Of a stretch of DNA of 64,000 nt, positions 45,410 to 63,919 are shown piece by piece. Both the position numbers and the translations under genes were made by a program. This DNA comes from Actinocatenispora sera. Lineage in GTDB: Bacteria > Actinomycetota > Actinomycetes > Mycobacteriales > Micromonosporaceae. Numbering within the stretch: position 1 is the stretch's first letter; the number at the start of each line of letters is the position of its first letter. The stretch lies in assembly GCF_018324685.1 (NCBI RefSeq), contig NZ_AP023354.1:6282426-6346425 (forward strand), given 5' to 3'. Under the pieces are notes generated by a model. It was not told the origin of the DNA. It worked only from the letters and a program-made list of their open reading frames with translations, and ran no database searches.

Positions 45410-46298
45410 AAGGTTGTCCCGTAATCGTTGGTCCGCTCGGTCGTTGACCTTGGTGTGGAGCAGACGATCAGGTCCGATCAGCCGCAGTGGATCCCGGTGT
45501 TCACCGGCCTGTCAGCCCGGCAGTTCGGCAAGCTGGTGGCCATCGTGGCTGGTCGCGGCGGACAGCAGACCGGCGCTGGCCGCCGGTGGGGGCTCCCGCT
45601 GGCCGACCGGGTGCTGTTGGTGGCCACCTACTACCGCACCAACCTGACCCTGCGGCAGATCGCGCCGCTGTTCGGAGTATCGAAGTCGGCCGCCGGGCGC
45701 ATCGTCGATCACCTGGCCCCACACCTGGTACTGGAGCCCCAGAGCCGCCGGCACCGACCCGACACGGTCCTGATCGTGGACGGCACGCTGGCGCCCACCC
45801 ACGACCGGAACATGTCGGCCCGGTCGAAGAACTACCGGTACTCCACCAACCTGCAAGTGGCCATCGACGCCAACACCCGCCTGACCGTCGCGGTCGGAGA
45901 TCCGTTGCCCGGCAACCGCAACGACTGCCGCGCCTACACCGACTCCGGCGTCGACCAACAGTGCGCCGGCGCGGCGGTAATGGCCGACGGCGGCTACCAG
46001 GGCAACCCGGAGGTAATCATGCCCTACCGCAAGCCGCGCGAGGGTGAACCGCCGCTGCCGCAGTGGAAACAGGACCTCAACACCGTCCACCGCCGTATCC
46101 GCGCCCGCGTCGAGCACTGCTTCGCCCACATGAAGTCCTGGAAGATCCTCCGCGACTGCCGCCGCAAACAACGAGGCGTCTGGTACGCCGCCGCCGGTAT
46201 CGCGTTGATGCGCAACCTGACCATGGTCGTATGACCGGCCCGACGCGGCCGTGAAGTCCTTCCGCGTCAACCCATCAAGATCATTACGGGACAACCTT
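45410..46298 (+). mobile_element. IS5-family element (complete)
   Basis: The terminal inverted repeats AAGGTTGTCCCGTAAT (left) and its inverse (right) are exact. A TA dinucleotide flanks it on both sides (45408-45409, 46299-46300), the target duplication typical of the IS427 group. It is 889 bp and contains one transposase gene. A partial second copy of its right end lies at 40203. Confidence 0.85.
45428..46234 (+). CDS. IS5-family transposase
   Basis: The 268-residue protein has an HTH_Tnp_4 region (LADRVLLVATYYRTNLTLRQ) and a DDE_Tnp_4 core: VLIVDGTLAPTHDR with the first Asp, AAVMADGGYQG with the second, and ARVEHCFAHMKSWKILRDCR with the Glu. It looks intact. The start is TTG 45428. Confidence 0.88.
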   Translation: MVRSVVDLGVEQTIRSDQPQWIPVFTGLSARQFGKLVAIVAGRGGQQTGAGRRWGLPLADRVLLVATYYRTNLTLRQIAPLFGVSKSAAGRIVDHLAPHLVLEPQSRRHRPDTVLIVDGTLAPTHDRNMSARSKNYRYSTNLQVAIDANTRLTVAVGDPLPGNRNDCRAYTDSGVDQQCAGAAVMADGGYQGNPEVIMPYRKPREGEPPLPQWKQDLNTVHRRIRARVEHCFAHMKSWKILRDCRRKQRGVWYAAAGIALMRNLTMVV

Positions 46299-47083: not shown

Positions 47084-47377
47084 ATGTTTGCTGTGCCCAA
47101 GCCCTATCCCCGCGAGTTTCGGGACAACGTGGTCGCGGTCGCCCGTGCCGGCGGCGCGCCGCTGACGCAGATCGCGAAGGACTTCGGGATCTCGGAGTCG
47201 TGTCTGTCCAACTGGCTGAAAGCGGCCGATGTTGCCGACGGCAACCGGCCCGGCGTGACCCGCGAGGAGTCGCAGGAGCTGCGGGAGCTCAAGCGCCGCA
47301 ACCGGCTGCTGGAGCAGGAGAACGAGGTCCTGCGCCGTGCGGCTGCCTATCTGGCCCGGGACATCAACCCAAAATGA
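47084..47377 (+). CDS. IS3-family transposase OrfA (copy 2)
   Basis: The 97-residue protein is nearly identical to the first OrfA, with changes such as SNWLKAADVADGNRPGVTRE in place of SNWLRAAVVEDGDRPGVTRQ. HTH and C-terminal leucine zipper are preserved. It overlaps orfB by four bases. Confidence 0.9.
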   Translation: MFAVPKPYPREFRDNVVAVARAGGAPLTQIAKDFGISESCLSNWLKAADVADGNRPGVTREESQELRELKRRNRLLEQENEVLRRAAAYLARDINPK

Positions 47378-48264
47378 TCTACCCGCTCGTCCGCGAGTTG
47401 GCCGCGGCCGGCGCCCCTGTTCGGGTGCCGGTCGCGGTGACGTGTCGGGTGCTGGGCTTCTCCCGGCAGGGCTACTACCAGTGGCTGGCCGGCCCGGTCA
47501 GCCAGCGTGACTACCAGGATGCGTGGCTGACCAACGCCGCACTCGATGCGCACGCCGATGACCCGGAGTTCGGCTACCGGCTGGTCGCCGACCAGCTCCG
47601 CGCCGCCGGCCACCACGCCAGCGACAACCGGGTATGGCGGCTGTGCCGCGACCAGCGGATCATCTGCGCCCACTCGGTCAAACGCGGTCTGGGCCGCAGG
47701 CCCGGTCCGCCGGTGCATGACGACCTGATCAAACGGCCAGGTGGCGGCAGGGACTTCACCGCTGCGGCACCCAACAGGGTGTGGCTGACCGATATCACCG
47801 AGCATCCCACCGCCGAGGGCAAGCTGTATCTGTGCGCGATCAAGGACCTGTGGTCCAACCGGATCGTGGGCTACTCCATCGACTCTCGGATGACCTCTGA
47901 GCTGGCGGTCGCCGCGCTGCGGCACGCCACCGGGCTGCGTTGCCCGGACCACACGATTGTGCATTCCGATCGCGGCAGCCAGTTCCGGTCCCGGAAATAC
48001 GTCACCACGCTGCACCAGGCCGGGCTGACCGGGTCGATGGGACGGGTCGGTGCCTGCGGCGACAACGCCGCGATGGAGTCGTTCTTCGCGCTGCTGCAGA
48101 AGAACGTGCTCAACCGCCGCCGCTGGACCACCCGTCACCAGCTGAGGCTGGCGATCGTGACCTGGATCGAAGCCACCTACCACCGCCGGCGTCGTCAAGC
48201 CCGCCTCGGCCGGCTGACCCCGATCGAGTTTGAGACCATCTACACCACCGCACACGCGGCCTGA
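47374..48264 (+). CDS. IS3-family transposase OrfB (copy 2)
   Basis: The 296-residue protein keeps the DDE residues (VWLTDITEH; IVHSDRGSQFRS; AMESFFALLQKN). It differs from copy 1 at scattered sites, for example MTSELAVAALRHATGLRCPD in place of MSAQLAADALTYAITQRETA, so the copies are old relatives rather than a fresh duplication. Confidence 0.9.
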   Translation: MIYPLVRELAAAGAPVRVPVAVTCRVLGFSRQGYYQWLAGPVSQRDYQDAWLTNAALDAHADDPEFGYRLVADQLRAAGHHASDNRVWRLCRDQRIICAHSVKRGLGRRPGPPVHDDLIKRPGGGRDFTAAAPNRVWLTDITEHPTAEGKLYLCAIKDLWSNRIVGYSIDSRMTSELAVAALRHATGLRCPDHTIVHSDRGSQFRSRKYVTTLHQAGLTGSMGRVGACGDNAAMESFFALLQKNVLNRRRWTTRHQLRLAIVTWIEATYHRRRRQARLGRLTPIEFETIYTTAHAA

Positions 48265-49002: not shown

Positions 49003-49425
49003 ACCGCACCGAACGCATACGGCGTGAGCCCGCCAGAGCGTGTACCTGCTCCTCTGCTGTCCCAAGCCATGCAGAGGGACCCGTCGACTTCGCGGGGCCA
49101 CGGGCGCCTATTGGTCGGGTTCGGGCCAGGCGCACCTCCAGCCGCGCCCGCGATGGATACGCGCCTTGCGTGGGGTAGTAGGCCAGCCGCTCGAGGGCAA
49201 CGAGGGTGTGCTGAACTCCGCGTACAGCGGGCCGGGTCGGGCCACATCATCCTCCCCAACAGCCAGACGCGGACCCGGCCGGCGGGGTTGCCGCCCTGGG
49301 CCGCGAGCGAGGCGTTGACCCCATCGGCCCGGATCGTCCGTTCGCCGGATACCGGGGCATCGATCGGACAACTAGCGTGGTGCCGCTTCCACGTCGGCCG
49401 AAGCATGGTCGAGAAGGAGCCGGAC
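49003..49425. other. Unassigned stretch before the FCD gene
   Basis: No gene is recognised in these 423 bases. Overlapping frames look like chance; no HTH sequence that could belong to the FCD gene was found. Confidence 0.3.
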
Positions 49426-49962
49426 ATGACGACTTGGGCGGGGAGCCCTCCGGATGAGCCAGCCGGCACGAGCGTGCCGGCGGACCCCCGTCGTCCTGAG
49501 TTGCTTCGATACTTCCTGGAGACCAGTGAGGTCATGGGACCGACGATGGCCGCCCTGGCGGCCCGCCGGGCCAGCCACGAGGAGATTCGGCGGATGTGGA
49601 CGCTGTCCATCCAGGTGGAGACAGCTGACGACGACATGGAGGCGAGCGTCCGAAGCGAACTGGCGTTTCATCAGGAACTTGCCCAGGCCACCCACAATCC
49701 GATCCTCCTGTCGACTTACCTGACGCTGCTGCCGGTGGCCACCGCATGCGCGCGGGTATCGCTGCGCGTTGCCGGCGCGCCGCGGCGGAGCGGGTACTGG
49801 CACCGCCAGATCTCCCAGGCCATCGAGTCGGGGGACCCCCAGCGCGCGGCAAACGCGATGTGCCTTCATGTGCGGCAGCTTCTTGCCGAGCTTGGGCAGG
49901 CGGAGCTGCTGGCGTCGACAGACACCACGGATCCGCCGTGGTCCGATGACGCCGCCAACTGA
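49426..49962 (+). CDS. FCD-domain protein lacking the GntR helix-turn-helix
   Basis: The 178-residue protein covers the all-helical FCD ligand domain of GntR/FadR regulators: LLRYFLETSEVMGPTMAALA, the metal-site pattern in FHQELAQATHNPILL, and HRQISQAIESGDPQRAANAM with a late CLHVRQLL. The usual N-terminal winged helix is absent, yet the ATG at 49426 has its own GAAGGAG ribosome-binding site. It is either a truncated regulator or a stand-alone ligand-binding protein. It converges with the eCIS cluster. Confidence 0.68.
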   Translation: MTTWAGSPPDEPAGTSVPADPRRPELLRYFLETSEVMGPTMAALAARRASHEEIRRMWTLSIQVETADDDMEASVRSELAFHQELAQATHNPILLSTYLTLLPVATACARVSLRVAGAPRRSGYWHRQISQAIESGDPQRAANAMCLHVRQLLAELGQAELLASTDTTDPPWSDDAAN

Positions 49963-50028: not shown

Positions 50029-51708
50029 TCACTGTTTGGCGAACAACTCGATCTCGCTGATCGCGACGTCGCTGCCATGCTGCGATCGGTACACGTGGGT
50101 TACCTGGACCTCGACCTCTGTGACCCCGGCCGCGTGGGACAGCTTCAACGTCTGCGGTCGTGCCTGGTCGGTGACGGTGAGGGTGTCCGACTGCCGGTTC
50201 GAGTAGACGAGATGTAGCTGTGCAGGTCGGTCATGGTCGGCGTAGCCGGTGGCGGTGCCGGCGGTGAGAACCAGTCGGGTGAGGCTCACCCGGCGCCCCA
50301 GATCGAAAGTCAGCGTGGGCGGGCTGTTCGGCTTCCAGACGACCTCCCAAGCGGTGTTGCTGTACCCATCGGCGACATCGGCCGGCGGATGGTCGTGCCG
50401 CCCCGTCGTTCCGGACACCGTCGACGGGTGAACCGGCACGTAGGTCGGATGGACCACCCCCCAGGCGCGGTCTTTGACCGCCTCGACCCGTGGCGTGACG
50501 ATCCCGTTGACCCTGTTGCGCAGAGGCGGATAGGCAACGTAGGTCAGGCCGACCAACACACCAAGAATCCCGGCGATCGTGACCGCCCGACGGTACAGCC
50601 GACGGAGGGCGGCACGGATGTCGCGCGGTCCGCCCGAGGTGCGCCGCGCACCGGCAGCCAGGACCCGCGGACCCCGACGCGGTATCAGCCGCTGCCACCA
50701 TCGCCGGCGTACCGGCAGCGCCTCGGTGAGCGAGGTGCCGCAGCGGCTGCAGAACTTCCGAGTCGGTGCGTTGCCCTCGCCACATTCGGCACAGATCAGG
50801 TCGCCGGGACGAAGCCGCCGGCTGGGTTTGGTCTTCCGGACCGGCGTCAAGCGGGCCTGCGGCGGCTGCGGCAACACGCTGCCGGGCACGTCGTCGGTTG
50901 GTACCGGCGTGGGGCGTTCGGCCTGCGATCCGGGGACGGGCCGCTCCGCCGCGGCGGAATGGGCCGGGGTCGGGCCGACGGCGGACACCAGCTGGCTCGC
51001 CTCCCGACCCGCCAGCGTGGCCCGGAACCTCGCCGCGTCATCGTCGCCCAGATCCTCGCGCGTGTTTGGGCCGGCCGACGGCGTCGATGCCGCCGGACTC
51101 TGCACCGGTGCCACCCGGACGGTGGGCACCGAGCGGCCCGGGGGCGGCGGGGCCGGCGCGGCCGATCCGGATGGTTCGGGAGACGTAGCCCCACCCGGTG
51201 CAGGTGGCGGTGGCGGCGCGACGCCGCCCGGTGCAGGTGGCGGTGGCGGCGCGACGCCGCCCGGTGCAGGTGGCGGTGGCGGCACGACGCCGCCCGGTGG
51301 CGGGGGTGGTGCAGGCGGGGGAACCGGCGGTGGCGGGGCGGCGGCCTTGGCCGGTCGCGGCGGCGGGGGCGGAGGCTTCGGAGCCGGGCCCGATGGCGGG
51401 CGGGCCGGCGCCGCCGCCTGGGCGCCGGCGGCGCCGGCTGCACCGCCGGTGGAGCCGGGCGGCTCGGGCGGCGCCTTGAAGCTCAGCCCGGGCCGGTCGA
51501 CGGTCTGGGTGGTCGGTGAGAAGACGTTGGCGATCCGTGCCAGCAGCCCGGGCGGGTCGGCTTGCGGCTCGGCCACGGCCTCGTCGATCACCTCCTCGGA
51601 GACCTTCGGCGTGACGCGCTCGCCGGTCCACTCCAGGAATCCGCCGCAGGAGCCGCAGAAGTCATCGGCGTCGTGGTTGTGGTTACCGCATCGGGTGCAG
51701 ATGATCAT
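50029..51708 (-). CDS. Zinc-ribbon, proline-rich membrane protein with C-terminal discoidin-like domain (eCIS anchor candidate)
   Basis: The 559-residue protein has an N-terminal zinc ribbon (Cys4, 7, 18, 21), a disordered proline/alanine-rich region (about 75-300) with an 11-residue repeat, a second zinc ribbon (Cys306, 309, 320, 323), a basic stretch, one transmembrane helix (about 375-395) and an F5/8C or NADase-type glycan-binding-like beta domain (about 430-559, ending SDVAISEIELFA). The layout predicts a cytoplasmic N-terminus and an outer sugar- or wall-binding end. As last gene of the eCIS operon it is a candidate for docking the particle at the membrane, like the CisA protein of Streptomyces. 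Start overlaps the previous gene by 26 bp. Confidence 0.8.
   Translation of the reverse strand: MIICTRCGNHNHDADDFCGSCGGFLEWTGERVTPKVSEEVIDEAVAEPQADPPGLLARIANVFSPTTQTVDRPGLSFKAPPEPPGSTGGAAGAAGAQAAAPARPPSGPAPKPPPPPPRPAKAAAPPPPVPPPAPPPPPGGVVPPPPPAPGGVAPPPPPAPGGVAPPPPPAPGGATSPEPSGSAAPAPPPPGRSVPTVRVAPVQSPAASTPSAGPNTREDLGDDDAARFRATLAGREASQLVSAVGPTPAHSAAAERPVPGSQAERPTPVPTDDVPGSVLPQPPQARLTPVRKTKPSRRLRPGDLICAECGEGNAPTRKFCSRCGTSLTEALPVRRRWWQRLIPRRGPRVLAAGARRTSGGPRDIRAALRRLYRRAVTIAGILGVLVGLTYVAYPPLRNRVNGIVTPRVEAVKDRAWGVVHPTYVPVHPSTVSGTTGRHDHPPADVADGYSNTAWEVVWKPNSPPTLTFDLGRRVSLTRLVLTAGTATGYADHDRPAQLHLVYSNRQSDTLTVTDQARPQTLKLSHAAGVTEVEVQVTHVYRSQHGSDVAISEIELFAKQ
51197..51295. repeat. 33-bp tandem repeat, three copies, within the anchor gene
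   Basis: Three nearly identical 33-bp units lie head to tail and encode an 11-residue proline-rich repeat (PPPPPAPGGVA on the minus strand). The repeat is in the disordered linker and may vary in copy number. Confidence 0.85.
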
Positions 51709-52240
51709 CGCGTCGCAGCTCCAGTTCGTGCAGGACGTGGGCCGGTTTCGCGCCGCGGACCAGGGCGTCGAGAAGTGGAACGGAGACCGAGTCCGGGTCT
51801 GCCAGCGTGACCCGAATACTCAGCCGTCCGCCGGGGTCGGGGACCTCGGCGCCGGGAGTCGAAGACACGTGAACGCCGCCCGTGTCGACGATCTCCACCC
51901 GACCACCCGTCGCGGTCTCCAGCAGCATCCGCAGCCCTGCCACGGTGCCGCGACAGCGGTGGATTCGCACGGCGGCCAGCACGGCGTCGCGCTGGGTGCG
52001 GTCGTCCCAGGTCTCGTCGGTCACAGCGCCGACCCAGTCGGCCAGCCAGTGCAGGAAGTCGGGCGGAGCCAGCCGCGGGTCGAGATAGGACTCGAGACAC
52101 TCCAGGCTGAGCGCGACCGGCGCGATCACCTCGTCGAATGCCGAGATCCAGCGCATCGTGAAGTCGTCGTCCTGATAGATCGAGGGCAGGAAGGACCGCA
52201 GCGGGTACGGTGTGGCGAGTCCGGGGACGGTGCCGCGCAT
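51683..52240 (-). CDS. Phage tail protein I-like baseplate protein (eCIS)
   Basis: The 185-residue protein has the TIGR02242-type tail-protein pattern (YPLRSFLPSIYQDDDFTMRW, PPDFLHWLADWVGAVTDETW, RCRGTVAGLRMLLETATGG). It is the baseplate wedge partner of the J-like protein in phage tails and eCIS. One base overlaps the J gene stop and 26 bp overlap the anchor gene start. Confidence 0.82.
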   Translation of the reverse strand: MRGTVPGLATPYPLRSFLPSIYQDDDFTMRWISAFDEVIAPVALSLECLESYLDPRLAPPDFLHWLADWVGAVTDETWDDRTQRDAVLAAVRIHRCRGTVAGLRMLLETATGGRVEIVDTGGVHVSSTPGAEVPDPGGRLSIRVTLADPDSVSVPLLDALVRGAKPAHVLHELELRRDDHLHPMR

Positions 52241-54195
52241 CAGTTGGCCTCGATCCTCACCTGGTGTTCGAACGAAAAGACCAGGCTGTGCGGTTCCAGG
52301 TCGACGCGACCGACCTCCGAGCCGCGGGTGCCGGTCACCGGGTTGGCGGCGAATAGCCGCAGATCCTCCACCAGATCCACTCCGCGCACCGTCTCCAGCG
52401 CGGCGAACACCTCACCGACCTGGACTGGCCTTCCGAACGGCCAACCATGTCCTTCCGGGCCGCCTCCCGGAAGCGGACTGAGCAGCCGGTACAGCACGGC
52501 CAACGAGTCCTTGCGGAGCCGTTCCGCATCGGTCCTCGGCCGCGCGACCAACCTCGCAACCGTAGTCACCCCGCGATACAGCGGCGGCTCGACCATGACC
52601 TGCACACCCAGGACACCAACCTGCCGCAGCCGTTCGGCGATGCGCGCCAGGGTGTCCTCCGCCGGGATGAGATCCTCCAGCCTGAGGTGGCCACGGCGAT
52701 CGGGCGCGGCCGGCACCACGAGCACCCGAACCTGGCCGGCGTGCACACCAGCCTCGCCGGCCACCACACAGCGCACCCGACTCACCTCCGGCGCCGCTTC
52801 GCGAGTGATCGCCTCGTAGTCCTCGGCGGTGACGGCGCGGTTGCGGCTGCGCAGTAGCAGCGGCCCCCGTACCTTGGCCTGCTCCAGTGTCTCGGCGTCC
52901 ACGCCACCCTGGGCTGGCTGCCGGTTCTCCACCGCCGACACGAAGGGAATGGAGGACCGTAGGGCTCGAATCTCGCCGGCCGCGACGTTGCCGTGGCTGC
53001 CACCGCCCACCGCGTAGCGAAGCATCCGTACGACCGCGCCGCGCTCGGGCACCGCGCCGTACTGCCTGGTCGAGCCGTCGGGTTGGCGCACTAACGGCCC
53101 GAACAGGACCCGGCCGCTGAGGGCGTCCAACAAGAAGTGCCGGTCGGTGGGCGCACTGTCGGCGAAGTGCTCCACCTGGATCCAATCCCGCCAACCGCGA
53201 TCGGAACCGATCTGCAGAGTCGGGGCACCGAATCCGGCCAGCACCGGGGAACGCGACAGCGCGAACCACTGCCCCGGTGTGCCGTCGGAGGTGCCGACCG
53301 CCTCCCCGTCGATCACCTCGGCGTGGAAGACCTCAACGGTGCCGCCGACGGTGGAGGCGGCGATCCCCTCGATCAGCGGGCTGGTGTGGTATGGCGGTTG
53401 CCCCTCCGCCGGATCGACCACCCGTGCCCGCAGCCAGCCGGCGAGCTGCCCGTCGACCAGGCTCTGCCGGTGCCCCGGGGGAACGTGCAGGATGATTGCC
53501 CCCGGGCGGTTGAGACCACCCGTCTCGTCGAGCCCCACCGCACACTCGATCCAGCCGTCCGCGCAGCTGGCCTCCCAGACCAGCGGCGGATGTACCGGAT
53601 TGACCCCGATGCCTTCCACCCGGCCCTCGAAATCGATGCGTACCGCGGCGCTAGGCACCTCAACATCAACGCCCAGCAACAGCGTGTCGTCCGGTACCGG
53701 CACCGCTGAGAAGGCAGGAACCGGGGTACCGAGCTCGAGTCGCTGGGTCTGCTCGACCGACTCGCCTGCGCCCGCCGAGCGGGTCCGCAGGCTGGACAGT
53801 GCGCACGGGGTGACCTCCAGTTCGGCACCGGTGGAGAACACGAGCGGCGCCTCTCCGCCGGTGCGTTGGGTGGCAACCAGCGTCCCGGTCGGTACCACCA
53901 GCGGGGCCCGGGCCGCCGTGGCGAGCCAAAAGGTGACAGTGGCCCGGGCAGCAGTGGCGGGGATCAGCCGCACCCCGATCAGGTCCAGGAATCTCACGAA
54001 CAACCGGTCCGGCACCCGGTTGAGCCGGTACAAGAGTTGGTCGGTGAGAAACGCCACCGCCTCGACCAGGGTGATGCCCGGATCGGCCGGGCCCCTGTCC
54101 GTCCACTCTGGACAACGCTGCATGATCAGCCGGCGTGCGTCCGCAACCAGGTCATCGAACCGACGGTCATCGAGATTGGGCAAGGGCAGGCTCAT
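52240..54195 (-). CDS. Baseplate J-like protein (eCIS)
   Basis: The 651-residue protein is the main wedge of the baseplate: MSLPLPNLDDRRFDDLVADA, PADPGITLVEAVAFLTDQLLYRLNRV split by a conserved helix, VTAEDYEAITREAAPEVSRV and RDR-type LVARPRTDAERLRK. This is the putative baseplate assembly (TIGR02243) form of Afp11-like proteins. Its ATG overlaps the gp25 stop by four bases. Confidence 0.88.
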   Translation of the reverse strand: MSLPLPNLDDRRFDDLVADARRLIMQRCPEWTDRGPADPGITLVEAVAFLTDQLLYRLNRVPDRLFVRFLDLIGVRLIPATAARATVTFWLATAARAPLVVPTGTLVATQRTGGEAPLVFSTGAELEVTPCALSSLRTRSAGAGESVEQTQRLELGTPVPAFSAVPVPDDTLLLGVDVEVPSAAVRIDFEGRVEGIGVNPVHPPLVWEASCADGWIECAVGLDETGGLNRPGAIILHVPPGHRQSLVDGQLAGWLRARVVDPAEGQPPYHTSPLIEGIAASTVGGTVEVFHAEVIDGEAVGTSDGTPGQWFALSRSPVLAGFGAPTLQIGSDRGWRDWIQVEHFADSAPTDRHFLLDALSGRVLFGPLVRQPDGSTRQYGAVPERGAVVRMLRYAVGGGSHGNVAAGEIRALRSSIPFVSAVENRQPAQGGVDAETLEQAKVRGPLLLRSRNRAVTAEDYEAITREAAPEVSRVRCVVAGEAGVHAGQVRVLVVPAAPDRRGHLRLEDLIPAEDTLARIAERLRQVGVLGVQVMVEPPLYRGVTTVARLVARPRTDAERLRKDSLAVLYRLLSPLPGGGPEGHGWPFGRPVQVGEVFAALETVRGVDLVEDLRLFAANPVTGTRGSEVGRVDLEPHSLVFSFEHQVRIEAN

Positions 54196-54614
54196 CGGAC
54201 GCCGCTCCCTTCCACCCCGGTGTTCTCCACCAAGCTGTCGAAATCGAGCACGACGCTGCGGTCGGGCTCGCCGGCGAGCCGGTAGCGGATGTCGATGCGA
54301 AAGAGGCCGGCGGCCTCATCCACGGCCGGTTCCACGAAGACCTCCCGCACCTGTACGCGCCCTTCCCAGCGGGTCAGGGCGGCCCGCACCTCGGTGGCGA
54401 TGCGTCCGGCGGTGTCGACGCTCATCTCGGCGAACACGAAGTCACGCAACCGTGAGCCGAAGTCCGGCCGCATCTGCCGCTCACCCGGGTAGGTCAACAA
54501 AATGATGCGCATCGCTTGCTCCACCCGCTCAACCCCGCTGTTGACGGCGATGGCGCCGTGAGCCTGTGCCCTCGGTGGGAACACCCAACCGGTTCCGATG
54601 CTGTCGGACCTCAC
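54192..54614 (-). CDS. GPW/gp25-like baseplate protein (eCIS)
   Basis: A 140-residue gp25 protein: GVERVEQAMRIILLTYPGER, QMRPDFGSRLRDFVFAEMSV, and RVQVREVFVEPAVDE. The EPR-like LTYPGERxxRPxFGSxL motif is conserved in T4 gp25 and T6SS TssE. It caps the sheath at the baseplate. Start ATG 54614; coupled to the J gene. Confidence 0.88.
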   Translation of the reverse strand: MRSDSIGTGWVFPPRAQAHGAIAVNSGVERVEQAMRIILLTYPGERQMRPDFGSRLRDFVFAEMSVDTAGRIATEVRAALTRWEGRVQVREVFVEPAVDEAAGLFRIDIRYRLAGEPDRSVVLDFDSLVENTGVEGSGVR

Positions 54615-54638: not shown

Positions 54639-56525
54639 CTAGTTCAGCTGGATCGGCTTGCCCTTGACCGCGACCGGCCCGGCGCCGTCGATCTCGACGG
54701 TCTTGCCCTTGAGGGTCAATCGGGAGCCGCCGTCGATGGTCACCGTGCCCGCCGCGCCCGCCCGGATCTCGATCGAGCCGTTGCACTCGATGGCCAGTAC
54801 GCCGGGCCGGTCCGGGCTGCAGCGCAGCGCCACAGACCCCGCCACCTGGTCCAGGCACAGGCCGATCCGGCCGTCCGCCGAGCCGAGCGTCAGGTCTGCC
54901 GCAAGGGGCTTTCCCTTGCCGTTCGGTGGTACCTCGTCGTGAAAGGCAAGGACGTTGCCGGCCGGGGTGACCAGCCCGCGCCGAGCCACGGCACCGGACT
55001 CGCCGGCGGCATGAACGCCGCCGTTGCCGGGTCGGCCGGTGCCGGGCCTGCCGCCGGCGAGTCCGTACCCGGTGCGCGTGCTCGCCAGGCTGCCCAAAAC
55101 GTACGGGCGGCGCACGTCACCGTGTTCGAAGGCCACCAGGACCTGGTCACCGGGGCTGGGGAGAAAGAGCGCGCCCTCCGCCGCGCCGGCGAACAGCTGC
55201 CCGGTCGGCGACCAGTCCGACTCGTGTGCGGGTGAGAGCCATGGCAGGCTGACCTTCACCCGGCCGAGTTGCTCTGGATCGTTGACGTTGGTGACCACCC
55301 CACACACCACCCCGTCGACAGTGGCGGCGCTGTCGCGACGGCGCGGGTCCGGTCGGGCCAGCGCCAGCAGAGAGCGATCCTGCATCCCGCTGGCGGTGAA
55401 GTTCGTGCGGTAGCCGAAGACTTCGGTGTCGAAGACGTGCCGGGCACCGCTGAGAAGCCAGCGACCGGCGAACGTGCCGGGTAGTCGGTCGAGCTGTACC
55501 ACGCATCCGGCCTGAATCCGCGCATCCCCGAGGCACTCTCCGTCCGCCTCTGCCTGGGTGCTTCCCCATCGGGCGGCAGCGGACCGAGCGGCGGTAGCGG
55601 CTGCCGCGTCACTGCCGCCGGGCAGCGGCAGGGGAAGGGTGGTGACGACGTTGGCTTGCGGGCTGGGGCCGGGCCCCAGATCGTCGGCCGCGCCGCGGTG
55701 TGCCGGCTCGGGTCCGCGCGTCGGTGGGACGAACGCACCCGCGAAGCGGGCTGCCTGGGGGCCGGCGACGGTACTGGCCCCGGCGTTGGCCACCTCATGT
55801 CGGACGGAGACCGTGGTCGCCCGAACCGGATCCCAGACCCGCACCTCCGCGTGCGGCGCCAGGTTTCCGGCGGTGACACGCGGGAACAGCCGGCGCAGCT
55901 CCGCACCGTACCGCAGCCGCAACGGCGTTGCGGTGTCCACCGTCGACTGGCGGCGGAAGTAGAAGCCGTCGTCGGCAATCCCCAGCTCGTAGCCGATCTC
56001 GCGGGCCCGTTGGGACAGGAACTCCCAGTCGGTCTGATTGGCCTGCACGACGTAGTGCACCGGGTCGGCGGTGGCATCCATCCTCCCTACCGGAAGGCCT
56101 GCATCGGTGGCCACCTGCCGGGCGATCTCGGAATCCTTCTGCTGGAGGAAGGTCCGGGTACGGCGCGCCCGCTGCAACCGGTGGTCCAGGGTGTAGCCGC
56201 GTACGACGGTCGTCGCGCTCGATTCGACGAAGATGCCTTCCACCGCGGTGATCTCCCCAGCGATGAGTCGGTGCGAACCACCCGCGGTGTCCGGCCCCCA
56301 CACCTGAATCGGGCTGCCCAGTGCGAGGCCGGCGATGCGCAGTGCCGCACCGTCGGGGTCTCTGAACCTGATCTCGAACATGTCCGGCACGGTCAGATGC
56401 GAGTCGACCACGACGAGCCGGATTCGATCCGCGGCCGCCGCGGGTAGCACCGTCGCCCCCGTGCCCGTCCTGATCACCGGATGCGCGAGTGCGGTGCTGT
56501 CCACCGGCGGGGTTGGCGTGCTCAT
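54639..56525 (-). CDS. VgrG-like spike/hub protein (eCIS)
   Basis: The 628-residue protein has a gp27-like N-terminal hub (residues 30-370: TWEFLSQRAREIGYELGIAD-type, YVVQANQTDWEFLSQRAREI), an OB-fold gp5 domain (about 385-480: VVTNVNDPEQLGRVKVSLPW, LFLPSPGDQVLVAFEHGD) and a repetitive C-terminal needle (LTLKGKTVEIDGAGPVAVKG, about 560-628). It forms the tip of the tube. No PAAR domain or toxin extension is fused. Its start overlaps the stop of the tube-adaptor gene (TGATG). Confidence 0.87.
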   Translation of the reverse strand: MSTPTPPVDSTALAHPVIRTGTGATVLPAAAADRIRLVVVDSHLTVPDMFEIRFRDPDGAALRIAGLALGSPIQVWGPDTAGGSHRLIAGEITAVEGIFVESSATTVVRGYTLDHRLQRARRTRTFLQQKDSEIARQVATDAGLPVGRMDATADPVHYVVQANQTDWEFLSQRAREIGYELGIADDGFYFRRQSTVDTATPLRLRYGAELRRLFPRVTAGNLAPHAEVRVWDPVRATTVSVRHEVANAGASTVAGPQAARFAGAFVPPTRGPEPAHRGAADDLGPGPSPQANVVTTLPLPLPGGSDAAAATAARSAAARWGSTQAEADGECLGDARIQAGCVVQLDRLPGTFAGRWLLSGARHVFDTEVFGYRTNFTASGMQDRSLLALARPDPRRRDSAATVDGVVCGVVTNVNDPEQLGRVKVSLPWLSPAHESDWSPTGQLFAGAAEGALFLPSPGDQVLVAFEHGDVRRPYVLGSLASTRTGYGLAGGRPGTGRPGNGGVHAAGESGAVARRGLVTPAGNVLAFHDEVPPNGKGKPLAADLTLGSADGRIGLCLDQVAGSVALRCSPDRPGVLAIECNGSIEIRAGAAGTVTIDGGSRLTLKGKTVEIDGAGPVAVKGKPIQLN

Positions 56526-57847
56526 CAGACCAGCCCTCCGGGCCGCTGGGCCAGCCCGGTGCGAACGTCCTGACCCGGCTGGGGTCGACGATCCTCGGCG
56601 TCGCCACCCTCGGCGGTGGCCGGAGAGGTGGCGCTCGCCTCGGGGGTGGCCGCCGACGCATCGTCGCCCGCATCCGTCGCGGCCGTATCCGCCGTGGCCG
56701 CGCCGGCCACCGCGTTCTGTTCGTCGGACGGCGACACCGTGTCCGGCGGCGTCGCCGCGTCGTCCGGGCTCTGTTCCTTGAGGGTGAGGCTGACCGTCGC
56801 CCGGACCGGACGTCCGGATCCGTCGAACCGGTCGTAGGTGGTACTGAGCTTGTCGATGACCACCAGATGGTTGAAGATGCCCCACCGAAACGACAGCTGT
56901 GGTGGCCGAAAGACCTGCGGGTTCATCAACGCGCCCGGTTCCGACTCCCGAGCACGCGGCGTCGCGAACACCAACAGGCGCTCCACGTACAGCTCGGTGT
57001 CCGGCCCCACCAGCCGGAGGTTGTTGACGCTGTAGGTCGTCTGGTTCGCCTCGACCGGCACCTTGGCGCCACTGGCGTCCTTGCTCTCCGACCGCTGCGC
57101 CGAGCGGCCAACGCTGATCGACTCGGCGTTGTACCGGAACTCCACTCGCTGCTCGGATCGTTCGTCGGTCAGGGTGATCACGCTGCGGCCCGGCCCCGCC
57201 ACCGAGGAGCCCGCCGATCCGCCGAGCGTGCCGCCGAGGAACCCCTGGTGGCGTAGCTGCAGCTTCTCGATGGCGACGGAGTTGGTGCCGGCGGCAAGAT
57301 CTGGACCGGTCCAGGCGACCGGCACGACACCCCGCAACTCCCACCGGGCCACGACCTTGCGGTCGGCGTCCAGCAGCGTCACGGTGGCGGTACGGTCCTC
57401 GTCCATCACACCGGCGGACCAGCTGCTGGTGACCTCGTGCAGCCAAGCCTGCAGACGCGGTGAGCTTCGTCCGTTCATCGCACGAGCCAGCGTGATCGTG
57501 CCGTACTCGAGCTGCCCGGTGAGGTAGTACTGGTGCAGGTGGTCACCGCCGGTGCGAACCGCCTGCGGGTTGAAGTTCACCGAGAGCCCACTGCACGACT
57601 GCCACTCGCCGAGATTGGTGTTGTCGAGCTTGACGGCGAAGCGCATCGACAGGCCCAGTCCGGTGCTCCGGCGCGAACTCGACGGGCCGGTCGCGGCACC
57701 CGTTCCGGTCGTCGACGCGGGAGACCCCGGCGCCTCGACGCCACCGCCAGCCGGTGCCGCAGTGCCGGTCGCCGGCGTCGGTCCGGCAGCGGCCGGTCCC
57801 GCGGGGCCGTTCCGGGCGGGTGGCACCGTACCCACGGTGACGGTCAT
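56525..57847 (-). CDS. Fused tail-tube and CIS tube-adaptor protein
   Basis: The 440-residue protein has a disordered start, a gp19/tube domain at about 65-205 (MRFAVKLDNTNLGEWQSCSG ... DRKVVARWELRGVVPVAWTG), then an Afp7-like adaptor domain at about 225-375 (RVEFRYNAESISVGRSAQRS ... VNNLRLVGPDTELYVERLLV ... VIDKLSTTYDRFDGSGRPVR), then an acidic Ala/Thr-rich tail to 440. In other clusters a separate tube and a separate adaptor (often with LysM) are common; here they are one chain. It should link tube and hub. Confidence 0.78.
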   Translation of the reverse strand: MTVTVGTVPPARNGPAGPAAAGPTPATGTAAPAGGGVEAPGSPASTTGTGAATGPSSSRRSTGLGLSMRFAVKLDNTNLGEWQSCSGLSVNFNPQAVRTGGDHLHQYYLTGQLEYGTITLARAMNGRSSPRLQAWLHEVTSSWSAGVMDEDRTATVTLLDADRKVVARWELRGVVPVAWTGPDLAAGTNSVAIEKLQLRHQGFLGGTLGGSAGSSVAGPGRSVITLTDERSEQRVEFRYNAESISVGRSAQRSESKDASGAKVPVEANQTTYSVNNLRLVGPDTELYVERLLVFATPRARESEPGALMNPQVFRPPQLSFRWGIFNHLVVIDKLSTTYDRFDGSGRPVRATVSLTLKEQSPDDAATPPDTVSPSDEQNAVAGAATADTAATDAGDDASAATPEASATSPATAEGGDAEDRRPQPGQDVRTGLAQRPGGLV

Positions 57848-57884: not shown

Positions 57885-58358
57885 TCAGCTCCTGCGGTAC
57901 TTGACGCTGTCGTCCAGGAATCCGGTGTGCGCGAGTTCCAGCGTCTCGACGATGGCCTTGGGCCCTCCCGCGTCGAACTCACCGATCGACCACGACACGG
58001 GAAACAGGTCGCGCAGGGTCCACTTGATGATCGGTTTTAGGTCAGAGCTCAGCATCTGGATCACGCCGCTGATCGGGTCGTGTTCGGCCGACAGCGACGC
58101 GAGCCAGCGCCGTACCACGGCGGAGTCGGGGCAGGCCACTCGGCTGAGCCGGATCCGTTCGTAGCTCGGGTTGCCCGGGTACTGACGCACATGGTTGCTG
58201 TCGCCCGAGCGGTACTCACACATCTGCCAGCTGACCTTGAGCCCGCTGGCCTTCTGCCACGAACCCAGGTCATAGGCGCTGCGGTCGAGGTGTACGAAGA
58301 AGTGATGGGCGGTGCCCATCGTGGTGTGTTTCTGCGGCGATGCCACGACAGCGACCAT
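57885..58358 (-). CDS. Tail tube protein gp19-like, second copy (eCIS)
   Basis: The 157-residue protein has the gp19 tube fold pattern: HHFFVHLDRSAYDLGSWQKA, SGLKVSWQMCEYRSG, ELAHTGFLDDSVKYR. It differs from the main tube protein at 61575 and from the fused domain, so three tube-like domains are in this cluster. It probably forms the baseplate-near tube ring (Afp5-like). Confidence 0.85.
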   Translation of the reverse strand: MVAVVASPQKHTTMGTAHHFFVHLDRSAYDLGSWQKASGLKVSWQMCEYRSGDSNHVRQYPGNPSYERIRLSRVACPDSAVVRRWLASLSAEHDPISGVIQMLSSDLKPIIKWTLRDLFPVSWSIGEFDAGGPKAIVETLELAHTGFLDDSVKYRRS

Positions 58359-58367
58359 CGGAGCTCC

Positions 58368-60938
58368 CTACTGATCGGCGAGCCAGCCGCGGCGTTCGCG
58401 GTCGACCAGCAGTTCGTGGCGAAACCGGCCCAACAGGCCCGGATACAGCCGATCGGTGAGCTCCTCCAGGTCGGCCGGACCGGTGTCGACCGGCTGGCGT
58501 TCCAGCGCGTCGGCGAGTCGGTCGAGCTCACCGCGCAGTACCGCGGCGTCGGCTCGCGCCGCGATCCCGTCCGTGCGGATGTCCAGGACCTGACCGCGAA
58601 GCTCGCCGACGGACTGAGCGAGGGCGGCGACATCAACCTCCGTCCCAGCCACAGCGGCGGGCACATCCGGGTGGTCCGGAGCCGTCGGCGCGGCCCCCCC
58701 GGGGAACGAGCCGGCGACAGCCAGCGGGTCGCCGAACTCGCGGCGCAGCAACTGGCGCAGCTCGTCCAGGTCCGGCGCGGGCTCGGCCGGTGTCCGTAGC
58801 AGGGCGTCGAACGGGACGGGCGCCACGCCACCGCGGCCCGCAACCGGGTCGCCGAAGGACTCGGACGCGACCCAGCGGCGCGGACCAAGGGGTTCCGGGT
58901 CGGGGCGTGTGGCCGCCTCCAACAGCGCGTTGCCACGGTTGTGCCCCCACTGCTCGGCCGAGGCGCCCGGCCGCTGCCGGATCGCCGGATCACCCGACGC
59001 CATTGTGGTGTCCGTCGTGATGGGCTGGTCGTCCGTACCGGCTCCGACGGGAATCCTGGCCACCCGCCGGCCGGTGTGCTCGGGCGCCCGTTGCGGGATC
59101 CATTCCCCTCGCGTCCGAAGCTGGGAGACGTCAACGCCCTGCTTCCGGCGGGGACCGTCCACGCGGGTCGCCGGAACCGTGGCGCGAAGGGGCATCGACG
59201 GTGAAGCCTCCCGTTCGAAGATTCCCGGCGGGCTTCCTGGCGCGCCGCTGGACGCTCCCGGGCTGTGTTTGATGCCATCCTGTTGGTGACGGAACCGGGG
59301 CAGGGCACTCGATCCGGCACCGTCGGACTTCGAAGAAGCAAGACCGAAGCCGACCTCCGGCGCCGCATCGGCGTGCGGCAGGTCCGCCCCGGGCGATGGT
59401 GCGTGCCGAATGGGCTGTGCCTGCCGCTCGGAGGGGACGCTCGTGGTCGGTGCGGTCGCCCCTGCAGGTGGCGGGCCAGCGACCGGCCCGATGGTTTCCG
59501 GACCGGTCCGGTCGGCGCTCGGCGGCCCGGGAACCGTCGCGGGAATTGGGGCCGGAGCGGTCACCGCAGAGGGCGGGCGAGAAACATGGGGACGCCCCCT
59601 GCCCTCCGGCGATCGGCGGGGAAGCGAGTCGTCGGAGTTCGACATCGTCGGATGGACGTCCGCGAAACGGTTCCCGGCCGCCGACCCAACCTCCGCGCCG
59701 ACGTCCGGTCGTACCTCACCGTTCGGCACCGCTTCGGCCTCCGGCACCACGCCGATTTCCGGCACGGCATCGGCGTCCGGCACCGCGTCGGCATCCGTCA
59801 CCACACCGGCATCCGATTCCGCGTCGACATCCGGTATGGGTATGACATCCGGTATCGCGTCGGCCGCGGGCGGGCCGACATCCGGTGCGGCTTCAGCATT
59901 CGGTGCGGTCCGGGCGTCCGGCACCGTGGCCGGGTCCGGTGGGGCGCCGGGGTCCGGAGGTGCGTCGGCGTCCGGTGCGACGGCGGCCCGCTCCGGTACG
60001 GTCTCCGCGCGGTGTGTCGGGTCGCGATCTGGCGCAGCACCGGTTTCGGCATTCGCAGCGGGCGGCTCCGACTCCCGGTCCGGTGACGATGGCGCATTCG
60101 TCCCGGCCGTTGCGGGTGGGTCTGCCACTGGGGCCGACGGGGTCGGCCGTTCCGGCCGGACGGTCGAGTGCAGACCAAGGCGGCGGCTCTGGCCGAGACT
60201 GGCCCGCGGGCCAGCCGTCTGGTCGCTCCGGAGCGCCCGGCGGGCCTCGTCCTGCTGGTCCAACGTTCGCAGCAGGTCCAGCCAGGCCGGCTCACCCGAC
60301 GACTCGTCATCGGTCTCGTCAAAGTCCTGATCCGGTGCTGGTTCAGGCCAGACCCCGGCAACGGGGCCCGGCACCGCGGCCGGTGGAGAGACCGGGCCCA
60401 TCACATCCGGGTCGACCGGCAGCGGGACCACCGGCAGCTCGTCCTGTGCCCAGAGCGACATGTCGTGGTTCGCGTCCCCCCAGGCCAAGTCGTCCTCGTC
60501 GGGCCCGGCCTGATCGTCTACCCAGACGCCGCCAACGGTATCCGGCTGGCGCGGTGCGCCGACCCAGCGATCGCCGGCATCGGTCAGGTCTTGCCGACCG
60601 GCCGGACGGGCAACGACCGGGTGACGCGAGCGCCGCCACCCGTCCGACGCCCAGCGCTCGACCGGAGCGGCAGTCTCGATCGGTACATCCGGCACGGCCG
60701 GATGTACCCGAACCAGACCAACCACCGTGCCGGCCGGGGACCGACCCAGCGGCGGAAACACCCTCATCGGCGGGTCCCCCACCGAAAGGGCAGGCACCGG
60801 CGGTTCACCAACGATCGTCGATGTCAGTGCTCTGGGGGTCGGAACGAGAGGAGCGAGCCTCGCCCACGCCCGAGCGGCGTGCACGCCGGTGGCGCCACCC
60901 GCTCTCCGCGCACGCCGACCGGTGAACGGCCATCGCAT
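58368..60938 (-). CDS. Long disordered eCIS protein with conserved C-terminus
   Basis: The 856-residue protein is largely proline, alanine, aspartate rich without globular sequence. Residues about 310-430 contain many short A-(V/A)-PDAD-like repeats. Only the last 150 residues look ordered: helices (SVGELRGQVLDIRTDGIAAR, VLRGELDRLADALERQPV) and a conserved end (LEELTDRLYPGLLGRFRHEL, LVDRERRGWLADQ). Its place between DUF6760 and the tube gene is constant in related clusters, but its function is not recognised. A tape-measure or adaptor role is speculation. Confidence 0.7.
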   Translation of the reverse strand: MRWPFTGRRARRAGGATGVHAARAWARLAPLVPTPRALTSTIVGEPPVPALSVGDPPMRVFPPLGRSPAGTVVGLVRVHPAVPDVPIETAAPVERWASDGWRRSRHPVVARPAGRQDLTDAGDRWVGAPRQPDTVGGVWVDDQAGPDEDDLAWGDANHDMSLWAQDELPVVPLPVDPDVMGPVSPPAAVPGPVAGVWPEPAPDQDFDETDDESSGEPAWLDLLRTLDQQDEARRALRSDQTAGPRASLGQSRRLGLHSTVRPERPTPSAPVADPPATAGTNAPSSPDRESEPPAANAETGAAPDRDPTHRAETVPERAAVAPDADAPPDPGAPPDPATVPDARTAPNAEAAPDVGPPAADAIPDVIPIPDVDAESDAGVVTDADAVPDADAVPEIGVVPEAEAVPNGEVRPDVGAEVGSAAGNRFADVHPTMSNSDDSLPRRSPEGRGRPHVSRPPSAVTAPAPIPATVPGPPSADRTGPETIGPVAGPPPAGATAPTTSVPSERQAQPIRHAPSPGADLPHADAAPEVGFGLASSKSDGAGSSALPRFRHQQDGIKHSPGASSGAPGSPPGIFEREASPSMPLRATVPATRVDGPRRKQGVDVSQLRTRGEWIPQRAPEHTGRRVARIPVGAGTDDQPITTDTTMASGDPAIRQRPGASAEQWGHNRGNALLEAATRPDPEPLGPRRWVASESFGDPVAGRGGVAPVPFDALLRTPAEPAPDLDELRQLLRREFGDPLAVAGSFPGGAAPTAPDHPDVPAAVAGTEVDVAALAQSVGELRGQVLDIRTDGIAARADAAVLRGELDRLADALERQPVDTGPADLEELTDRLYPGLLGRFRHELLVDRERRGWLADQ

Positions 60939-61574: not shown

Positions 61575-62069
61575 TTAGAACGACGCCTTGGCATTCGGGT
61601 CGATGATGTTGTCGCAGATCAACGTCAGCTCCATCATCACCAAATCGCTGGTGCCAGACTTCATCGAGCCGATGTTCATCTTGGACGGCCAGGCATTCTG
61701 CAGGATGTACTGCAGGCCGGGGGGCCCACCCGGATACGGATCCATCGGCCGGAAGAACTTCAGCGTGCAGGTCTTGTAGGCCGTCTCCAAGCCGGTGCGC
61801 ACCATCTGGTACCAGGTCCAGATCGTGAGGTCCTTGTCCAGGCCACGCTTGAGCGTCACGGTCGGCGGCTTCTGCGCACCGAACAGCTTCGCGTGTTCGA
61901 TGCCCTTCTTCCCGATCGCCTGATACTCACCCGTGGTGGTCTCCATGTTGATGGCGCCGAGCTCAGCGAAGTTGACGGTCGACATCCCGGTGATCTCCAA
62001 CTGGAAGATCGCGGCGCTGAGCAGCTCTGTGTGGGCACCGGGACGGGCGATCTGGCGTGGTCCTGGCAT
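61575..62069 (-). CDS. Main tail tube protein (eCIS)
   Basis: A 164-residue gp19-type tube protein: FQLEITGMSTVNFAELGAIN, the TTGEYQAIGKKGIEHAKLFG region, PTVTLKRGLDKDLTIWTWYQ, and a C-terminal MMELTLICDNIIDPNA strand. It stacks as hexamer rings inside the sheath. The ATG at 62069 has GGAG before it. It follows the sheath gene after 72 bp. Confidence 0.88.
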   Translation of the reverse strand: MPGPRQIARPGAHTELLSAAIFQLEITGMSTVNFAELGAINMETTTGEYQAIGKKGIEHAKLFGAQKPPTVTLKRGLDKDLTIWTWYQMVRTGLETAYKTCTLKFFRPMDPYPGGPPGLQYILQNAWPSKMNIGSMKSGTSDLVMMELTLICDNIIDPNAKASF

Positions 62070-62141
62070 CAGATGGCTCCTTTGCGATGGGCGGGGCGGA
62101 GGCACGTCGCCGGCGTCGGGTGCCGAACGACCGGGGTGCGC

Positions 62142-63707
62142 TCACTCCTCCAGCGCCGCACCCTGTGCGAGTTGGGAGAGGCGGAAAACCACGAACTCGG
62201 CCGGTTTCACTGGTGCCAGGCCGATGTCGACGGTGAGCACGCCCGCGTCCAGGTTCTCCGGCGGGTTGTTCTCGGCATCGCACTTGACGTAGAAGCCCTC
62301 CGCCCAGCTGCTGCCCATGAGCGCACCGGTCGCCCAGATCCGGCCGAGGAACATCGTGATGACCCGGCCGACGGTGTCCCACAGCGCGGCGTCGTTGGGC
62401 TCGAACACGACCCAGTTGGTACCCAGCAGGATCGACTTCTCCACCCAGTTGAACAGACGGCGCACGTTGAGGTAGCGCCACTCGGCGTCGCTGGAGAGTG
62501 TGCGCGCCCCCCACACGCGGATGCCCTGCCCCGGGAAGAACCGGATGCAGTTGACGCCGATCGGGTTGAGCTGGTCGTGCTCACCCTTGGTGATGGCAAG
62601 CTCCAGCGTCAGCGCACCGCGCACCACCTCGTTCGCTGGGGCCTTGTGCACGCCACGGGTCTCGTCGCTTCGGGCCCACACCCCGGCCAGGTGCCCGCTC
62701 GGCGGCAGGAGGATCGGCTTGCCCTGCGCCGGGTCCATGACCCTGATCCAGGGCCAGTAGAGCGCCGCGTACTTCGAGTCGTAGCCGGCCACGTCGTTGC
62801 GCCACTCCTTGAGCTGCTGGGCATTGAGGCCGGGCGGCGGATCCAGGATCGCGACCCGATCCCCCATCAGCTCGCAGTGGGCGATCATCCCCAGTTGCAC
62901 CGCCTTGAGCCCGTCGTCGTCGAGCGCGCCACGCTGGTAGGCGCTCATCAGGTCGGGCGCGCACAGCATGGTGACGTCCTCCAAGGCCTCCAGTCCGGCA
63001 AAGCCTGTCCGGTCCCCGACGTCGCCGACGTACTCGGCCGCGTCGAGCTGGTTGCCCGCGGGAGCGGCGTCGCCGCCGGCCAGCGCCACCTCGGCACCCT
63101 GGCGCGGTACCAACGATCCGCCCTTGGTCTCCTCGACCGCGATCAGCTTCGAGCGCTGCCGGACCGCGGTGACCACGTTGGTCGCGCCACGCTTGACGGT
63201 CACGTCGGCGAAGGTCTCGACCACCTTGTCGCCCTGCTTGACCGTCAACGTGAACGTCCCGTCCGACGGTGTGGACGGCGCTTCGACCAGTACGGCAATG
63301 TCCCGGCCGGCCGGGCCCGGCTGCAGCGCCCGTACCCGCAGCGCCGTCTTGTTTCCAGCGCTTGCCGGCAGGCTGGCGGTGGCATGGCCGGCCGTCAGCG
63401 CGGCCGGCTCATCGCCGGAGTTGGGTACGTTCCCCACGATCCCAGCGCCGACCCGGACCACATAGGCCGACCCGCCGCCGTTGAGGAAGAAGCCATAGAC
63501 GGCGAGTGGCAGATAGGCGCCGTCGAGGAAGGTACCGAAGGTTCGGGTGAACTGGGTCCAGTTGGTGATCAGGGTCGGCTCGTGAACAGGGCCCTTCTCG
63601 GCGAAGCCGACGAAGGCAGCGACAGCGGTGCCGACCGCTTCGATCGGTCGTGAGCCGGAGGAGACTTCCTCGACATAGACACCGGGAGACAGGTACGTCG
63701 CCGCCAT
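62142..63707 (-). CDS. Contractile tail sheath protein (eCIS)
   Basis: A 521-residue sheath protein: the N-terminal MAATYLSPGVYVEEVSSGSR and VAAFVGFAEKGP, a middle domain with RVGAGIVGNVPNSG, and a conserved C-terminal half with VRRLFNWVEKSILLGTNWVV, NDAALWDTVGRVITMFLGRI and CDAENNPPENLDAGVLTVDI. This is the gp18/Afp sheath family. It is the first gene of the minus-strand operon, 212 bp from the divergent DUF4255 gene. Confidence 0.92.
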   Translation of the reverse strand: MAATYLSPGVYVEEVSSGSRPIEAVGTAVAAFVGFAEKGPVHEPTLITNWTQFTRTFGTFLDGAYLPLAVYGFFLNGGGSAYVVRVGAGIVGNVPNSGDEPAALTAGHATASLPASAGNKTALRVRALQPGPAGRDIAVLVEAPSTPSDGTFTLTVKQGDKVVETFADVTVKRGATNVVTAVRQRSKLIAVEETKGGSLVPRQGAEVALAGGDAAPAGNQLDAAEYVGDVGDRTGFAGLEALEDVTMLCAPDLMSAYQRGALDDDGLKAVQLGMIAHCELMGDRVAILDPPPGLNAQQLKEWRNDVAGYDSKYAALYWPWIRVMDPAQGKPILLPPSGHLAGVWARSDETRGVHKAPANEVVRGALTLELAITKGEHDQLNPIGVNCIRFFPGQGIRVWGARTLSSDAEWRYLNVRRLFNWVEKSILLGTNWVVFEPNDAALWDTVGRVITMFLGRIWATGALMGSSWAEGFYVKCDAENNPPENLDAGVLTVDIGLAPVKPAEFVVFRLSQLAQGAALEE

Positions 63708-63919
63708 CGGACACCCCACTGGGTCGAAGTTGTCGGAGCGCGACCGGGACGCCGCAGCGTTGCCGGGTAGGGCGAGCATCGCAGCTCACCCCGCGGGCCG
63801 TACCGAACGCACGGGCCTCCGATCGGGCTACCGCCGATGCCCGGACGGGCACCGACGACGCTCGCCTGTCTGCCCGCCGGAGGCAGGCAGGCGGCACGGC
63901 GCTCGGTGACGATCGGGGG

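Follow-up and report, generated by a model that had tools for sequence, protein, structure and literature searches.

The closest described counterpart of the gene analysed here is cisA (SCO4242) of Streptomyces coelicolor. In its passages on Sco4242, Vladimirov 2023 (PMC10020575) reported a transmembrane (TM) helix, an outer domain and, ahead of the helix, a Cys-rich domain that possibly binds zinc, and proposed attachment of the protein to the baseplate of the contractile injection system (CIS). A possible adaptor role for CisA was then raised in the corresponding passages of Casu 2023 (PMC10066040). According to the sections on CisA in Casu 2025 (PMC12237407), the protein is bitopic with its N-terminus inside and was found in the membrane fraction; contraction, function and CIS-dependent death require it in S. 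coelicolor, and cells without cisA still have particles, which are mostly extended. The same sections present the contact between the cytoplasmic part of CisA and Cis11 as a prediction and a particle structure that does not include CisA. In PMC13277306, CisA is named once, in the reference list. Going by these passages, the slot, the TM helix, the outer domain, the membrane-proximal zinc domain and the need for firing were already in print (Vladimirov 2023, Casu 2023/2025), and docking by a CisA-type protein had been proposed as well. What appears to be new within the literature searched is the conservation of an N-terminal ribbon (judged against main-text passages), changes in the position of cisA around the cluster and the existence of tail-anchored sister forms. 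The comparison bears on how an injection machine that is free in the cytoplasm reaches the membrane of its own cell and fires, a step for which CisA is required. In type VI secretion systems, a membrane complex (TssJLM) anchors the contractile machine at the cytoplasmic membrane, and a docking CisA would likewise form such a link; a Pfam scan of the protein described below returned no domain of a TssJLM-type complex.

The window, i.e., the whole stretch of 64,000 nucleotides from Actinocatenispora sera, carries a CIS operon on the minus strand in the order sheath, tubes, hub, gp25, baseplate J, Tail_P2_I and the cisA homologue. The latter (50029-51708, minus strand) starts with ATG, encodes 559 aa and overlaps the end of the Tail_P2_I gene by 26 bp. 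Upstream of it, the wedge, hub, tube and sheath genes run as far as 63779, all on the same strand: the Cis12-like wedge protein with a Tail_P2_I domain (51683..52240; 9gtp_E, E 1.8e-39), which gave a partial match, far under the cut-off, to NCBIfam CIS12_fam; the Cis11-like baseplate J protein (52240..54195; 9gtp_1K, E 6.2e-203; TIGR02243); a gp25-like baseplate protein (54192..54614); a VgrG-like hub (54639..57446), whose ORF call probably starts too early; a 440-aa ORF combining a gp19 tube domain with part of a CIS_tube domain (56525..57847); two gp19-like tube proteins (57885..58358 and 61575..62105); and the contractile sheath protein (62142..63779; PF04984, PF17482). The placement of the gene at the end of the eCIS operon, as the preliminary description had it, was confirmed, the remaining CIS genes lying upstream and an FCD-domain gene (49024..49962, plus strand) being next on the other side. 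9GTP is the baseplate of the S. coelicolor CIS (PMC12237407, structure passages). Since both wedge proteins match 9gtp, the window machine is of the S. coelicolor kind, a type IId label being borrowed from this match rather than computed, and the cisA homologue lies directly downstream of these wedge genes. A chance ORF was ruled out by domains, conservation and operon position.

The encoded protein begins with a zinc ribbon at aa 4-21 (51646..51699, minus strand; C4, C7, C18, C21), followed by the conserved residues L25 and W27. Its Cys residues and L25 are invariant in alignment A1 (23 rows) and, together with W27, in alignment A7 (30 rows), and AlphaFold2 modelled it with a pLDDT of ~86. 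A Pro-rich, probably disordered linker (~aa 28-305; 50794..51627, minus strand) of 278 aa with 28% Pro and low pLDDT leads to a membrane-proximal ribbon, here called ribbon 2 (aa 306-323; 50740..50793, minus strand). Both ribbons are of the CxxC..CxxC type and were recognised by Pfam as DZR (E 5.2e-8) and Zn_Ribbon_1 (E 7.6e-8), with two stretches each. The TM helix is predicted at ~aa 376-396 (50521..50583, minus strand) by hydrophobicity, the top-scoring 21-mer beginning at aa 376, and by AlphaFold2; the net charge of +13 between ribbon 2 and this helix agrees with a cytoplasmic N-terminus. In AlphaFold2 models built from 40 and 30 rows, the ribbons and the outer domain are predicted with confidence and the linker with low confidence; residues 363-415 form a long helix, and a beta sandwich starts at aa 423.

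This outer domain (~aa 421-559, ~140 aa; 50032..50448, minus strand) has a discoidin/CBM32 fold and belongs to an NADase-type glycan-binding family, with 60.9 bits against a cut-off of 38 for NCBIfam NADase_discoid. Its modelled beta sandwich has the F5/8 type C/CBM32 fold, with 3nng_B as the best match (Z 16.9; 133 residues, rmsd 2.4), and a profile search of PDB sequences returned 7ji1, named an ADP-ribosyl cyclase, at the top (E 2.6e-15). Fold and family are thus those of CBM32 / F5/8 type C domains and of the NADase translocation domain (PF25302, NF047619; PDB 7ji1). Such domains are mostly parts of secreted enzymes, whereas the one described here sits on a membrane protein; its glycan binding is putative. 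Pfam, NCBIfam and AlphaFold2 together bear out the two ribbons, Pro-rich linker, single TM helix and discoidin-like outer domain read from the sequence beforehand.

By sequence comparison with Streptomyces proteins of the same slot, among which SCO4242 itself was not included, the window gene is an actinobacterial CisA homologue. With P0006 as query, 55 of the 80 loci examined, mostly of Streptomyces, gave a match to their slot gene at E <= 1e-5, and NADase_discoid was detected both in the window protein and in P0007, the CisA-slot protein of Streptomyces sp. NBC_01324. Like the CisA family, the window protein displays a single TM helix, a conserved C-terminal domain of ~150 aa and, as recognised by Pfam, a Cys-rich zinc-binding domain just before the TM helix. 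With S. coelicolor SCO4242, as described in the published passages, it shares the slot downstream of Cis11 and SCO4243, the single TM helix, the largely unstructured cytoplasmic part, the Cys-rich, possibly zinc-binding domain before the TM helix and the conserved outer domain of ~150-160 aa. Unlike SCO4242, it has 559 instead of 468 aa and a Gly/Pro-rich linker with a 33-bp array; its second, N-terminal ribbon goes unmentioned in the main-text passages on SCO4242, and Streptomyces relatives carry one. The likeness to CisA drawn in the preliminary description therefore holds, with slot, architecture, outer-domain family and kind of CIS all matching.

From a larger group, 150 genomes of the GTDB family to which the window belongs were sampled; 31 of them gave matches to the C-terminal half of the protein, and the sheath C-terminal domain is present in 82. 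In 27 of the 31 the same contig carries a sheath gene at a distance of 8.6-17.5 kb from the match, and in two more (G030, G060) the matches are split over contigs. The other two are weak: the match of G077 (E 8.7e-4) is located in a region without J, away from its CIS, its slot gene being on another contig (L151), and that of G118 (E 1.9e-5) is a 987-aa F5/8 protein, the sole family match in a genome with no sheath match. No close homologue away from eCIS, of the kind the preliminary description had named as speaking against its docking proposal, was found in the 150 genomes. The strong family matches sit at CIS loci, and the idea of a ribbon-TM-discoidin protein general to actinobacteria and without a link to CIS was rejected. 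Window-type J (E 1e-180 or better) occurs in 30 genomes, 28 of which are among the 31 with a CisA match (Fisher p 9.8e-25, kinship uncorrected); the slot of the 29th (G031) is occupied by a divergent CisA, and in the 30th (G043) the contig stops 1.5 kb past J. Two congeners (G001, G002) showed neither a CisA nor a sheath match. Alignment A1 comprises 23 of the 31 family matches; G003 and G058 were excluded for their split frames, G030 for a contig end, and G026, G032, G124, G077 and G118 because they could not be located or did not match. All 23 members have both ribbons, and their linkers range from 56 to 456 aa.

A scan of named genomes gave 202 relatives, of which 80, mostly Streptomyces, were kept. 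J lies upstream of the slot gene in 65 of these loci, and in the remaining 15 the contig starts within the gene or shortly ahead of it. Sixty-one of the 80 could be read at full length with a clear start; they have linkers of 96-436 aa, and their two ribbons are a consequence of the selection rule. Alignment A7 consists of the window protein and 29 of these 61. Relatives were also found in 20 plasmid records (Streptomyces, Streptantibioticus), following the J and Tail_P2_I genes in all four records opened.

The loci of the window type, referred to as lineage 1, number 49, 30 of them from the window family and 19 from elsewhere in the order. A cisA gene was found for 45 of them, each with the outer domain. 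In 39 cases it occupies the slot (with a split frame in G003, G058 and G180), in five it lies elsewhere on the same contig and in one (G030) on another contig. The displaced genes are located 8.6-17.5 kb from the sheath gene in G010, G028, G083 and G144 and 27 kb from J in G179; among these loci (L040, L044, L048, L049, L249), three have cisA on the strand opposite J. The slot of G043 is not visible (contig end), and no cisA was found near an intact J in the other three of the 49 loci (G152, G221, G225), although in G221 the outer domain by itself has a distant match. In one lineage-1 slot without cisA, a 1034-aa AAA/BTAD regulator is next, on the opposite strand (L223, 2606-5707, minus strand), and in L225 and L226 a large opposite-strand gene likewise takes the slot position. 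Automated slot classification had missed L215 (G162) and L039 (G058), both of which carry a cisA gene. Across lineage 1 and the sister clade described below, the N-terminal ribbon is absent from G031, G161 and G136, and in G254, G212 and G236 just one ribbon lies in the open frame, with an ambiguous start position.

J genes 39-43% identical to window J are common in the same order, and one of them (G177), compared with PDB sequences, matched only 9gtp. Thirty such sister J genes, 11 from the window family and 19 from two other families of the order, form one clade with a support of 99 in a J tree made with FastTree only, in which long branches were flagged (including L156, L160, L231, L236 and L237). 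A ribbon+TM gene follows Tail_P2_I in all 30 sister loci, and 26 of the proteins stop 0-8 residues past the TM helix; the outer-domain profile found no match in the six frames of those 26 loci even at E 10. The other four (G026, G056, G075, G077) combine ribbons like those of the short forms with a CisA-like outer domain and were recovered by CisA profile A2, which had been constructed from other sequences (E 1.7e-29 to 5e-19); by sequence, they link the tail-anchored group with the CisA group. In a profile comparison of the short forms with CisA, the TM-adjacent ribbon aligns (E 1.8e-10), ribbons being a common motif. The sister tail-anchored proteins hence have slot, ribbon(s) and TM helix in common with CisA and differ from it in the absence of the outer domain from 26 of 30 and in the sequence RRLPGTxGR between the ribbons, which is invariant in the 19 proteins outside the window family. 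Two ribbons are present in 29 of the 30, while G136 has the TM-adjacent one alone. In the 19 proteins outside the window family, the charge between ribbon and TM helix is negative (17) or zero (2), which makes their topology less certain. Outer-domain presence requires two changes on the J tree.

Four J loci outside the sister clade have no ribbon+TM gene, namely L160 (G063), L231 (G217), L236 (G110) and L237 (G042). Two of them, L160 and L237, are second loci of their genomes with a J gene 41% and 42% (the latter over part) identical to window J, like sister loci; the J tree alone, in which their branches are long, keeps them outside, and the sister count by J identity alone would be 30 of 32. 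J matches were followed to E 1e-60, and G110 (1.6e-57) was included as well. The short-form profile A8 matched 25 of 150 genomes of the order, corresponding to 15 sister loci, five lineage-1 loci and five matches without J; it failed to recover G194, G221, G245 and G250, four of the 19 sister loci from other families, which were found through J. The matches without J (G203, G158, G217, G247, G280; E 5e-5 or weaker) were set aside as unrelated ribbons; the fetched stretches, two of which are short, contain no J. In the literature searched, with subscription papers and preprints mostly outside it, we found neither a published name for the sister tail-anchored ribbon proteins nor a report joining contractile injection systems with zinc ribbons.

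Taken jointly, we consider it probable (about 0.75) that the window protein is a CisA-type adaptor in which contact of ribbon or conserved peptide with the wedge triggers firing, ribbon 2 and the TM helix being the minimal unit and the discoidin domain an add-on. Under this reading, the cytoplasmic part (both ribbons and the conserved peptide that precedes ribbon 2) would contact the exposed Cis11/Cis12 wedge of a free particle, the Pro-rich linker would serve as a flexible line, and the TM helix would fix the catch at the cytoplasmic membrane, so that membrane contact would trigger firing. The N-terminal ribbon or the peptide might add reach or a second contact, and the outer domain would be an extra module that might sense glycans, act as a clamp or promote clustering. 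The TM-adjacent ribbon and the TM helix are kept in every member found. Because the sister clade keeps ribbon and TM helix in the slot while the outer domain is absent in 26 of 30, ribbon 2 and the TM anchor are likely the core of what we infer to be docking; and because the sister clade keeps ribbons and TM helix in the same slot without it, the outer domain looks like an add-on, as does the N-terminal ribbon. With the outer domain absent from these 26 of 30 proteins, a bridge to the cell wall, as suggested in the preliminary description, cannot be the general function. We lean slightly towards a wider view in which a small tail-anchored protein of ribbon(s) and TM helix would be the general dock of actinobacterial cytoplasmic CIS, and CisA an elaborated form with a glycan-binding sensor. 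If this is true, the sister-clade loci would encode intracellular, self-directed machines with a previously unrecognised dock, and the ribbon+TM gene would be a genome marker of that mode. The natural series of full CisA, CisA without N-terminal ribbon and ribbons plus TM helix only shows which parts evolution keeps and tells which truncations of S. coelicolor CisA come first; the small proteins without outer domain may also express more easily than the toxic full-length CisA.

Different roles for the protein were weighed against this adaptor reading. An outer domain retained in 45 of 45 lineage-1 proteins found would suit a protein that is mainly a stress sensor, detecting an envelope signal outside and relaying it via the ribbons without holding a particle, and the relevant passages of Casu 2025 speculate on sensing and oligomerisation via the C-terminal domain (PMC12237407); the tail-anchored sister forms, however, have no outer part for sensing, and we regard such a role as rather unlikely. 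The same domain figures in the view of Vladimirov 2023 (PMC10020575) that the protein is a particle-borne fibre or receptor-binding protein whose outer domain binds glycans on the surface of target cells. In the passages concerned, that paper notes that the slot downstream of the wedge genes holds fibres in other eCIS, that Sco4242 was detected in purified particles and that its C-terminal domain resembles carbohydrate-acting domains, and the CBM32-like fold of the window outer domain was confirmed here. Tail fibres of eCIS are soluble and have no membrane anchor; examined for the anchor part alone, the window protein has a predicted TM helix, CisA was assigned to the membrane fraction with its N-terminus inside (PMC12237407, CisA passages), and the outer domain is lacking in 26 of 30 proteins of the sister clade, all of which makes a fibre improbable. 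For the G177 sister cluster, Pfam detected no fibre among eight ORFs lying within or next to it, which cover part of the cluster.

Zinc ribbons often act in protein-protein contact. This general property and the position of the cisA homologue beside the wedge genes would be in keeping with an assembly platform, on which baseplates are built at membrane-anchored ribbons and then leave; yet S. coelicolor without cisA still has its particles, mostly extended, as stated in the passages on the mutant (PMC12237407), and we judge this role very improbable. A membrane-active effector carried by the CIS seems hardly credible. It would account for the toxicity of cisA expression in E. coli and for CisA peptides in crude particle preparations from stressed cells, both mentioned in the passages on CisA (PMC12237407), but the same source reports no particle contraction in cells without CisA, the gene is strongly conserved in a fixed slot, and the effectors described for the S. 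coelicolor CIS in the passages of PMC10066040 are other genes. A phage origin was rejected as well: three scans of viral contigs, whose search patterns limit their reach, gave no relative, and neither did a phage collection queried with the C-terminal half of the window protein. Plasmids queried with two tail-anchored forms and a single-protein scan of genome contigs gave no match.

Returning to the CisA-type adaptor and its cytoplasmic part, the peptide preceding ribbon 2 (aa 277-303, beginning VLPQPPQARLTPVRK; 50800..50880, minus strand) is conserved and, on the basis of its sequence, a candidate docking motif. A V.P..RP.V-like pattern, defined post hoc, occurs in 67 of 84 lineage-1 proteins, compared with 1.9% for 50-mers from elsewhere in the linkers and 14% for segments after shuffling. 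Further towards the N-terminus, the linker contains a 33-bp tandem repeat of 3.2 copies with 98% matches (51194..51299, minus strand). The protein of the congener G003 shares 95% identity with the window protein over the C-terminal half, and in its linker a 6-bp array of 10.5 copies replaces the 33-bp array. This replacement makes a repeat-driven change of linker length plausible; the earlier suggestion that the repeat could vary the length of the linker is therefore tenable at that strength, linker lengths also differing widely. The cisA gene of G003 carries a frameshift within the linker. An on/off switch in the linker was considered and dropped; no long homopolymer was seen at the G003 site, and an assembly error is as likely. 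Split cisA frames occur in L034 (G003), L247/L255 (G058) and L246 (G180), reflecting either assembly errors or real loss.

Some further features of the neighbourhood deserve mention. The 440-aa ORF at 56525-57847 looks as if a tube protein and a Cis7-like tube initiator were fused. Among the tube genes, 58368-60938 (minus strand) encodes an 856-aa, Pro/Ala/Asp-rich protein with repeated short motifs, which gave no Pfam match and is a candidate tape measure or cargo. Transposase genes (DDE_Tnp_1, rve integrase core) are located on the plus strand at 45428-46234 and 47200-48264, within a few kb of where the CIS operon ends. Beyond the end of the window (L148, 3725-8550; genome 6346724-6351549), two genes divergent from the sheath gene encode proteins of 1144 aa (PD40, choice-of-anchor-D/Ig-like repeats) and 431 aa (Ig-like repeats).
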